Shown: positions 18,315 through 21,232 of the stretch, one piece after another
Layout of the letters: each line of letters opens with the position of its first letter
Position numbering within the stretch: position 1 is the first letter of the stretch
IMG/VR virus record: IMGVR_UViG_3300032073_000270
Coordinates: 1-23,006 of that record
From: a virus
Length of the DNA stretch: 23,006 bases
Strand: one strand, 5' to 3'
Made by a program: the position numbers and the translations under genes
The notes under the pieces: model-generated
Told to the model about the DNA's origin: nothing
Seen by the model: the letters and a program-made list of their open reading frames with translations, nothing else
Databases searched by the model: none

Positions 18315-18578
18315 CTATTCAGCGTCCCCTTCGGGTAAATCTAGCGGCCCCATTAACCATCCTTCAGGCAGAGTGACTTTGTTTTTAGAAAGTTCCCACT
18401 CAGTACCAGTCCAGTAGTAAACACGACCTGTGACATCTGGCCCTGTACGAACCAAGATATCACTCGGCTGAATGAAGACGACTTTTTTCCCACTTGTCAA
18501 GCATCCGGTTAGCCCAAGCGTCCCGCAACTTACGAGGAACAACAGGAGCCACCGAAGCGGTGACAGGTTTAGCAGCAT
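18315..18578 (-). CDS. Small outer-membrane lipoprotein, possible lysis-related protein
   Basis: An 87-residue protein with a typical lipoprotein signal: a hydrophobic core (RWLLLFLVSCGTLGL) followed by LTGC, giving a lipidated Cys at residue 26. The mature part (about 62 residues) contains VVFIQPSDILVRTGPDVTG and YYWTGTEWELSKNKVTLPEGW and ends acidic. I do not recognise a named family. Its place after a holin-like gene makes a spanin-like or other lysis role plausible, but it lacks the proline-rich look of Rz1 proteins and has no C-terminal membrane segment as in single-chain spanins, and no Rz partner is visible. A frame can also start three bases upstream at GTG, but I prefer the ATG at 18578-18576, which overlaps the holin stop by one base (TGATG). 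Confidence 0.7.
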   Translation of the reverse strand: MLLNLSPLRWLLLFLVSCGTLGLTGCLTSGKKVVFIQPSDILVRTGPDVTGRVYYWTGTEWELSKNKVTLPEGWLMGPLDLPEGDAE

Positions 18579-18850
18579 CACTCAGTAGAAGTTTCAGTAT
18601 TTCCTTCAGGATTACTATTAGTATCTCCATTTAGTTTTACTTGTGCGTCTATCGCATGTTTTTTAAGTGTCAGTCTAGAGCCTGTATAGCCTAAAGCCAC
18701 TAGCGTAGCGGTGATTAACCCTACAACTCTGGCCCCTAATTCACTCTCGTCGATCAGTCCTGATGCAGTCAAAGCACCTACAGCTACCGCTGCAATGCTC
18801 ATCCAGAACTCTGTACTTTTGTATCCTGCTTTTTTCTCTATCGTGTTCAT
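18578..18850 (-). CDS. Holin-like small membrane protein
   Basis: A 90-residue protein with two likely membrane helices, about residues 15-33 (FWMSIAAVAVGALTASGLI) and 38-58 (VVGLITATLVALGYTGSRL), and a polar, acidic C-terminal tail. The order 'KSTEFW, helix, short loop, helix, ALGYxxSRxxxK' resembles small phage membrane proteins often annotated as holins. A holin would open the inner membrane at the end of infection and release the lysozyme encoded on the other side of the capsid gene. The holin role is inferred from topology and company. It has a good Shine-Dalgarno (AGGAAA) about six bases upstream, and its start overlaps the scaffold stop by four bases (ATGA). Confidence 0.68.
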   Translation of the reverse strand: MNTIEKKAGYKSTEFWMSIAAVAVGALTASGLIDESELGARVVGLITATLVALGYTGSRLTLKKHAIDAQVKLNGDTNSNPEGNTETSTE

Positions 18851-19569
18851 GAAAGGTTTCCTGATTTTGCTAGTTTTCTCTCAACCATAGCGTGGAACTT
18901 AGTATCTCCAGCTTTATATAAAGGATTCTTCATGTCTTGCATCAATTCATAGTTAGAGCCATACCCACCTTCGACTGCTCTTGATGTACCTTGAACTAAA
19001 TCAGGCGACGTAGAGCCTCCAGATTGAGCGTACTGTGCATACAGCCCTTTGATTGCTAACTTAGCTACTCCTAAATCTCCATTAACTGCTTGATTATAAG
19101 CATCTAGATCGGCTTGGTCTAAGTTTTCAGAGGCCCAACCTACCATGTTCTTGTAGGTTTCTTCACCTCCAGCTAAGGAATACATGTCATTTAACTGTTG
19201 ATTCCTAGCTAACTCTCTACCTTCGATGAAACTGTCTACTAAATCTTTAGAGATTCCTTTCTTTTCTAGAGCTTTATAAGTCTCTTCACCCAGACCACCT
19301 TCGGTATCATACTCAGTTTGGTACTGATCGAAATCTTCTTCTGTAAGTAGCCCTTTTTCTTCTGCATTCCTTGTTGAGAATTTTTTTTCAAGTTCTCCGT
19401 AGGCTTTTGCGAGGTCTTGAGGGTCAGAGAATTTTGGAGGAAGCCAATCAGGTCGCTCCGCTCCTTGTTCCTCTTGATTGTTTTCAGGCTCCGTGGCTTC
19501 TTCTGCCGTAGTTTCCAATTGTGGGTCATCGGCAGGTGTTTCGTCTGCTCCTATAGTTACTCTCTCCAT
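18847..19569 (-). CDS. Capsid assembly scaffolding protein (gp9-like)
   Basis: Internal scaffold that directs the capsid protein into the prohead and leaves before DNA packaging. At 240 residues it is shorter than T7 gp9 (307). The N-terminal 38 residues are strongly acidic, followed by the typical RPDWLPPKFSDPQDLAKAYG (about 39-58), then ELEKKF. The C-terminal MQDMKNPLYKAGDTKFHAMV (about 213-232) followed by a basic RKLAKS is the usual capsid-contact end. It sits between portal and capsid gene as in T7, but two small membrane-associated genes intervene before the capsid. The sequence before its ATG is a poly-A-like tract (AAAAAGAAAAAATAAT) without a good Shine-Dalgarno, and the stop of the microprotein gene is two bases upstream, so coupled translation is likely. 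Confidence 0.92.
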   Translation of the reverse strand: MERVTIGADETPADDPQLETTAEEATEPENNQEEQGAERPDWLPPKFSDPQDLAKAYGELEKKFSTRNAEEKGLLTEEDFDQYQTEYDTEGGLGEETYKALEKKGISKDLVDSFIEGRELARNQQLNDMYSLAGGEETYKNMVGWASENLDQADLDAYNQAVNGDLGVAKLAIKGLYAQYAQSGGSTSPDLVQGTSRAVEGGYGSNYELMQDMKNPLYKAGDTKFHAMVERKLAKSGNLS

Positions 19570-19571
19570 TA

Positions 19572-19643
19572 TTATTTTTTCTTTTTATTTTTTTTACAAT
19601 CACCTTTACAGCAATCTTCAAAACAATCTTTATTAGTACACAT
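19572..19643 (-). CDS. Cysteine-rich 23-residue microprotein between portal and scaffold
   Basis: The 73-base space between the portal stop and the scaffold start holds a complete reading frame of 23 codons. It begins MCTNKDCFEDCCKGDCKK and ends in a run of Lys with one Asn. Five of the first 16 residues are Cys, in the pattern C-x4-C-x3-CC-x3-C, followed by a highly basic tail. The start codon overlaps the portal stop by one base (TAATG) and has the clearest Shine-Dalgarno I see in the window: AGGAG, four bases before the ATG. The stop is two bases before the scaffold ATG. The overlap at both ends and the strong ribosome binding site argue for a real gene. I know no family for it. The Cys cluster could bind a metal or iron-sulphur group, or form disulphides; this is inference. 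Confidence 0.66.
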   Translation of the reverse strand: MCTNKDCFEDCCKGDCKKNKKKK

Positions 19644-21232
19644 TATTCTCCTGCTTGTTGTGCGGCTGCAGCCATCTGTTGTAACTGCTCTGGATTTTCT
19701 TGAGCCATTTGCCCTGCTATGTTTGCTACATTAGGGGCGACTTGCTGAGCCATTGCTTGTTGAGCCATCTGTTGTTGTTGTTCTTGTATTTCTTCTTCAG
19801 TTCTGACTAGACCCTCAACATCAATACCCAGCGAAGTAGCTCGGCGCTTCAGGTAATCACTCATGTTTACATATGTAGCAAACTCTTCACCTAGAAGTTG
19901 GCTGGCTCCTGATACAAAGCTATCTAATTTATTTAGATCATGTCCTCTACCAAGGGCTTCCAAGCCGGTAACGATGGTTGGCTTGACGATCTTTTTAGGT
20001 AACTTAGGGAGTCGGCCTGCCTTTTCCATTCTGTCCATCAGTCTATTGACTAAAGGCATCTGGAATTCCTGAGACAAGATAGAGTAGACGCCACCTAAGA
20101 CATCCTCTAATTCTTGTGCCATAAATCTAATCTCTTCTGCAGTAACACGTTCACCTTGTCTTTGAATAGATGTATTCATTAAGAAGGCGAAGCCTAGACG
20201 CTCCTTGATTTGTGCTATAGTTTCTTGAGCCACCCTGAAGTCGGCAAATTTTTCCATCTGCAGACAAGTGACATCTTGTGCATTGCCCTGAACGATAGCA
20301 CCGTTAGGAGAATTAGCCAGAATGCGTGGGCGTGTGGTTCCATTTGGATTTACTAAAAATAATACTTTAGCTGCAGCGGCTGACCCTTGGACAATAGCCT
20401 GAGTCAATCCTTCGAGAGACTGAAGATCACCTATGTACTCTTCAATAAACCCTCGTCCATAATCTTCATTCTCGATACGAGTATAACGCAGAGGCATCCA
20501 AGGGTTACGATCCATTGGATAAGTACCCTCAGCTTCTGGTATGTTTAAGTCTGCAACCTCTTGTCTTACGTGCCACTTATCGTTTGATCTATAAATCCCT
20601 GTGTAAACATCTACGGATTTCTGACCATGCTCATGACTAACCTGAGTGTCGCCCTCCTGCTCCAACATTTCTCTTATTGAAATAGGCAGAACATTAGGGT
20701 CAACAGATTCTTTTACTATAATAGATTGAACGTTACCCATAGGGTCACGCTTACATGTATACCTATCTAAGTTAAAGACACGAAGACCGCCTTTGTCTGG
20801 TACATATAGTAGTACATTTCCTGCTACCACTAGTTGCTTCAAGGCTTCAAAGACTCCAACTCGAATAGCTGAGGTCTCTACCTCACTCTGGACAGCCCTC
20901 TCCATTTCTGCGAGAGCTTTCTCTAATTCAGTTTGTAATCCTTCTTCAGCTTCGCCTCCACTCTCCTTCTCAAATTCATACTTGTCTATAATCAGACGGA
21001 AGAATGGAGAGTTAGGTGGAAGTAAGGCTAATAAAAGTTTAGATGAGAGATTGTTTACCCCTCTGGCTCCTATACCTTGATGCGGTGTCGAGTACTCAGT
21101 ACTTGAGGTATTGCTATCTGGAGGTACAAGATAAGGAATAGTAAGAGCAGCAGCATCCCTAGCCCTACGGAGAAAAGGATCACGACGCTGTTCGCAAGCG
21201 GCGTAGTACGACTTGAGTGTGCCAATGTCCAT
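19643..21232 (-). CDS. Portal / head-tail connector protein (gp8-like)
   Basis: Dodecameric ring at the head vertex through which DNA is packaged and ejected, and the platform for the tail. The 529 residues match T7 gp8 (536). Diagnostic segments are ARDAAALTIPYLVPPDS (about 24-40), STEYSTPHQGIGARGVNNLS (44-63) with SKLLLALLPPNSPFFRL (64-80), and EEYIGDLQSLEGLTQAIVQG in the middle. The last 50 residues are very rich in Gln, Ala and Met (about 479-529), as in many marine T7-like portals. It follows the gp7.3-like gene by two bases, and its stop overlaps the start of the microprotein gene. Confidence 0.96.
   Translation of the reverse strand: MDIGTLKSYYAACEQRRDPFLRRARDAAALTIPYLVPPDSNTSSTEYSTPHQGIGARGVNNLSSKLLLALLPPNSPFFRLIIDKYEFEKESGGEAEEGLQTELEKALAEMERAVQSEVETSAIRVGVFEALKQLVVAGNVLLYVPDKGGLRVFNLDRYTCKRDPMGNVQSIIVKESVDPNVLPISIREMLEQEGDTQVSHEHGQKSVDVYTGIYRSNDKWHVRQEVADLNIPEAEGTYPMDRNPWMPLRYTRIENEDYGRGFIEEYIGDLQSLEGLTQAIVQGSAAAAKVLFLVNPNGTTRPRILANSPNGAIVQGNAQDVTCLQMEKFADFRVAQETIAQIKERLGFAFLMNTSIQRQGERVTAEEIRFMAQELEDVLGGVYSILSQEFQMPLVNRLMDRMEKAGRLPKLPKKIVKPTIVTGLEALGRGHDLNKLDSFVSGASQLLGEEFATYVNMSDYLKRRATSLGIDVEGLVRTEEEIQEQQQQMAQQAMAQQVAPNVANIAGQMAQENPEQLQQMAAAAQQAGE

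Follow-up and report, generated by a model that had tools for sequence, protein, structure and literature searches.

Between the portal and scaffold genes of this viral genome lies an open reading frame (ORF) of 23 codons, which raises the question of whether so short a frame encodes a selected peptide and, if so, what such a peptide might do. The window analysed here corresponds to the entire virus record (23,006 bases), and the features on which the argument turns are listed below.

19572..19643, minus strand: microprotein gene, 23 codons plus stop, MCTNKDCFEDCCKGDCKKNKKKK (from sequence, family conservation and a codon test)
19596..19640, minus strand: conserved 15-residue core CTNKDCFEDCCKGDC (from two family alignments and 61 distinct DNA cores)
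19575..19595, minus strand: Lys-rich tail of the microprotein, KKNKKKK (from sequence)
19648..19652, minus strand: Shine-Dalgarno-like AGGAG, within the portal gene and four bases 5' of the microprotein ATG (from sequence)
19643..21232, minus strand: portal (head-tail connector) gene, directly upstream of the microprotein gene (phrog_449, E 1.4e-181)
18847..19569, minus strand: scaffold (head-assembly) gene, directly downstream of the microprotein gene (phrog_1052, E 3.9e-46)

The translation places Cys residues at positions 2, 7, 11, 12 and 16. The microprotein ATG shares base 19643 with the portal stop, an overlap of one base, and two bases separate the microprotein stop from the scaffold ATG at 19569, before which no Shine-Dalgarno (SD) sequence was found in the window. 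The 23-codon frame, its five Cys, the AGGAG, the one-base overlap and the two-base gap had all been reported by a first-pass annotation of this DNA and are correct in every case. Two other short ORFs lie on the minus strand between the scaffold and major head protein genes, one (18578-18850) encoding a weakly holin-like membrane protein (phrog_297, E 0.008) and the other (18315-18581) a product with a lipoprotein-like signal.

A survey that is independent of the microprotein sequence was obtained by searching IMG/VR with the portal protein and inspecting the DNA that follows the portal gene in 67 loci. Many of these portal relatives carry a small post-portal ORF bearing the same motif as the window, the remainder having either the scaffold immediately after the portal or different small genes. 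Among 15 distinct cores of this portal-anchored set, the codon test gave pS 0.81 and pN 0.11. The corresponding values for all 61 distinct core DNA sequences were pS 0.99 and pN 0.17, a set in which invariance is partly due to search patterns that fixed some residues, a bias from which the portal-anchored set is free. The strongest conservation of reading frame in any set (pS 0.557, pN 0.020) was found for eight loci with a GTG start, which are described below. Shifted frames of the same DNA gave ratios of about 1.5, one of them with stops in every sequence. Because change is unrestrained at third codon positions and the protein stays constant, the ORF is, as judged from its pattern of codon change, a translated peptide under purifying selection. 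There is practically no chance that the frame is open by accident and yields no product, as might be supposed from its mere 23 codons and the A-rich DNA in which it lies, given that the protein is conserved with free third positions in some 60 distinct sequences from unrelated backgrounds; the codon test refutes it. Random or interrupted sequence at this position in homologous phages, which had been named as an outcome that would count against a gene, was not seen where the gene is present, both frame and protein being kept.

Alignment of 29 diverse members identified C2, N4, C7, D10, C12, G14 and C16 as invariant and F8 as near-invariant, giving a family core of C-x-N-x2-C-F-x-D-x-C-x-G-x-C, to which the window core CTNKDCFEDCCKGDC conforms, and a conserved Cys pattern of C-x4-C-x4-C-x3-C. 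At core position 4, Lys or Pro predominates. The core residues C1 and N3 are kept in members found with a pattern that left both free, and the F and D are likewise kept in members found with a second pattern that left those two free. Four of the five Cys in the window are thus invariant throughout the family and the fifth, Cys11, is variable. The motif C-x4-C-x3-CC-x3-C that had been proposed from the window is therefore present there but does not describe the family, and the suggested check, that Cys spacing be kept while third codon positions vary, holds for the third positions but not for the five-Cys spacing.

The distribution of the gene is patchy. On a tree of 41 portal proteins, 37 phages could be scored, and 18 of these, among them the window, carry it. 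At least seven gains or losses are needed to explain this pattern, five of which are forced by well-supported branches; the microprotein gene is on these grounds accessory. The portal-scaffold junction of the T7-like group is variable, DUF5754-like genes and further small genes occurring in it (L014, L015, L016, L018, L031 and L035), and this slot takes up cargo genes. The junction bears directly on the idea that the ORF is a mere leader that positions ribosomes for a scaffold start lacking a good SD of its own. The very tight packing, the two-base gap to the scaffold ATG and the missing SD would all suit such a leader; however, selection acts on the amino acids, which a pure leader would not need, and in three close relatives (L003, L004 and L008) the same scaffold gene starts directly after the portal stop, with the microprotein absent. 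Moreover, other genes intervene between microprotein and scaffold in nine loci (L011-L015, L019, L020, L022 and L026), and in other phages there is no scaffold near the microprotein gene. The conservation of the amino-acid sequence, together with the three relatives that manage without the ORF, excludes a main role as scaffold leader, so that this account is very improbable and the setting of scaffold translation by reinitiation, as first suggested, is not the selected function.

The reach of the family was assessed by scanning degenerate DNA patterns against the 2.9 million viral contigs of IMG/VR, in which about 70 contigs from several unrelated phage backgrounds carry the family core. A relaxed final pattern matched 73 viral contigs, nearly all of them family members and just three (L185-L187) outside the set already found; these three were set aside as members, no start codon adjoining the core. 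The records searched hold one copy of the microprotein per phage. Among 84,980 cellular species genomes a stricter pattern matched 16 times, and one of these matches (L109, in genome G011) is a clear family member, the others (L103-L108 and L110-L118) being mostly unlike the family. L109 itself looks phage-derived, since its neighbouring genes also adjoin the microprotein in the viral contig L089. Among the 297 genomes of the phylum of G011 the relaxed pattern matched G011 alone, and it was not found in 299 genomes of the phylum of the alphaproteobacterial G012. The family is thus seen in essentially only phages. Several of the phages (L173, L121, L076, L139 and others) encode products that begin like a type IV pseudopilin, one of which matches a PHROGs pilin (E 5e-4), and such ORFs may hint at the host group; hosts of the PVC group, which these neighbours had suggested, gain no support, the motif being missing from the 388 genomes that represent G010's phylum (Verrucomicrobiia). 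When family members served as tblastn queries on 50,697 phage records, there was either no match or a single weak one, to an unrelated sequence (Vibrio phage VPp1, E 0.6), a null result that with such short queries is weak evidence of absence.

Across the family the upstream gene may encode a portal, a DUF5872 protein, an acidic late protein, an MscS-like membrane protein or, in one lineage, an exported protein with a heavy-metal-associated (HMA) domain. The same module thus follows unrelated genes in other phages, and the tie to a head-assembly block that the window had suggested does not extend to the family. Small membrane ORFs recur near the microprotein (L079:2552-2971 and similar ORFs in L143, L155, L162 and L166) and, at a score slightly short of the cut-off, resemble the MscS beta-domain (PF00924, E 9e-4). 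In most members the microprotein start abuts or overlaps the upstream stop, offsets of -1, -4, -11 and -14 being common, and the window shares this trait through its one-base overlap with the portal. An SD-like site lies ahead of 37 of the 63 family starts, as against 12.7% of random ATGs. Eight loci (L077, L079, L083, L087, L093, L096, L098 and L101) have no ATG and instead a conserved GTG four codons upstream. These eight had also been considered as C-terminal fusions to K/R/S/P repeats and are better read as stand-alone genes starting from the GTG. The start lies here inside the upstream acidic gene, whose GA-rich repeats contain no stops in the overlapping frame and so look like a fusion of that kind. 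Several members are fused ahead of a lipoprotein signal sequence, which fits an autonomous domain.

The tail is far less constant than the core. Lys-rich tails occur in the T7-like group and W-P-W-Y-R in many members, the tail being acidic or nearly absent in others; in L002, the nearest relative, it runs on to a DWPWYR motif, short of which the window form ends. The form in L012 is 39 residues long. The poly-Lys tail noted at the outset is accordingly real in the window and not conserved across the family.

As to function, we lean modestly towards a reading in which the family comprises an accessory, phage-specific microprotein that would act as a cytoplasmic four-Cys metal-binding module and would usually be translated by coupling to the upstream gene. 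The presence of four invariant Cys within 15 residues of a peptide without signal sequence suggests a metal site, and a metal-binding role is plausible and is the one favoured here. The four Cys would most likely bind one soft metal ion, for which zinc is the first guess and copper or an iron-sulfur cluster possible instead. The bound metal would give this very short peptide its fixed fold, to whose shape the fixed residues of the core (N, F, D and G) would contribute, while the partner would probably be set by the variable tail, which may be Lys-rich, acidic, absent or of the W-P-W-Y-R type, the differing tails suggesting differing partners. In the window the microprotein would be made late, along with portal and scaffold, its translation being coupled to the portal stop, a detail of expression that is likely. 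Since the stand-alone forms carry no signal sequence, the peptide would be expected to act in the cytoplasm, where it might engage a host or phage target or else influence the metal pool. An AlphaFold2 model of the microprotein, with a mean pLDDT of 60, is too poor to inform on the fold, and the lack of any match to the microprotein among metal-binding family models and PDB chains speaks against the reading.

Zinc sites usually present a CxxC knuckle, and this is absent from the C-x4-C-x4-C-x3-C spacing, which leaves iron-sulfur binding or two disulfides possible. Four conserved Cys would indeed suffice for two disulfides, and their fixed spacing suits either use. Nevertheless, a disulfide-linked or redox-active mini-peptide appears distinctly improbable, because the stand-alone forms would stay in the reducing cytoplasm, the CxxC redox motif is missing, and in the lipoprotein fusions the core precedes the signal sequence and so lies on the cytoplasmic side. 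Alternatively, the peptide might sequester copper, zinc or iron, or pass it on, during infection in the manner of a metallothionein or chaperone, with the metal being more than a structural pin. Besides the four Cys within 15 residues, this is suggested by one phage lineage (L095, L136, L146 and L170) in which the microprotein gene is coupled directly to that of an exported HMA-domain protein, overlapping the stop of the HMA (PF00403) gene by 1-4 bases; in L089 and L109 it follows such a gene, also encoding an exported protein, by about 120 bases. The favoured reading, too, draws on these HMA neighbours, which fit a link to metals; they are confined to one phage lineage, however, and the HMA gene is not adjacent in most phages carrying the microprotein. 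Since, in addition, CxC clusters are lacking and the invariant N, F, D and G with a single four-Cys site suggest a defined fold and not a metal sponge, we consider such a role unlikely. Returning to the favoured metal-binding module, a broader proposal can be put forward tentatively, namely that this may be a family of metal-pinned microproteins exclusive to phages, the first of its kind to be described, with an accessory gene exchanged among unrelated marine phages and a product that would act on a host target or the host metal pool in infection. If it does bind metal, few known metal-binding phage modules would be as small as the microprotein.

Searches of PHROGs, Pfam, NCBIfam and PADLOC with the window protein and 28 aligned members gave no meaningful match (one chance Pfam hit, E 0.093), nor did a PDB sequence search with the microprotein, and no description of such a microprotein was found in a search of open-licence papers. 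Gene callers and profile libraries usually overlook peptides of this length. The family can still be traced through unrelated phages by four Cys and a few fixed residues, and is thus clearly under selection. Together, family conservation, the codon test and the empty library searches bear out the original view of a genuine, undescribed Cys-rich microprotein, and we rate it as a new family of a generally known kind, that of short Cys-based modules.

Eight cultured or reference relatives have no such gene between portal and scaffold. Two of them, the cultured T7-like phages LUZ100 and CRP-125, do present small basic ORFs of similar size in the same slot (gp35, 52 aa, and gp29, 40 aa, respectively), but these contain no Cys and do not resemble the microprotein in sequence. 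The HMA (PF00403) proteins of L089, L095, L109, L136, L146 and L170 are its genetic neighbours, encoded by a separate gene and having their own fold and a CxxC motif; the microprotein is not an HMA domain. With bacterial metallothioneins it shares small size, a high density of Cys and a presumed soft-metal ligand, although it differs in its four conserved Cys, the lack of CxC clusters, the fixed N/F/D/G motif and the lack of a Pfam or NCBIfam match. The CCHC zinc knuckle of the retroviral nucleocapsid type (C-x2-C-x4-H-x4-C) differs in spacing from the C-x4-C-x4-C-x3-C of the microprotein, which has no conserved His ligand and no Pfam match, yet in both a very short Cys module places an aromatic residue behind a Cys, includes a conserved Gly and is often flanked by basic residues.
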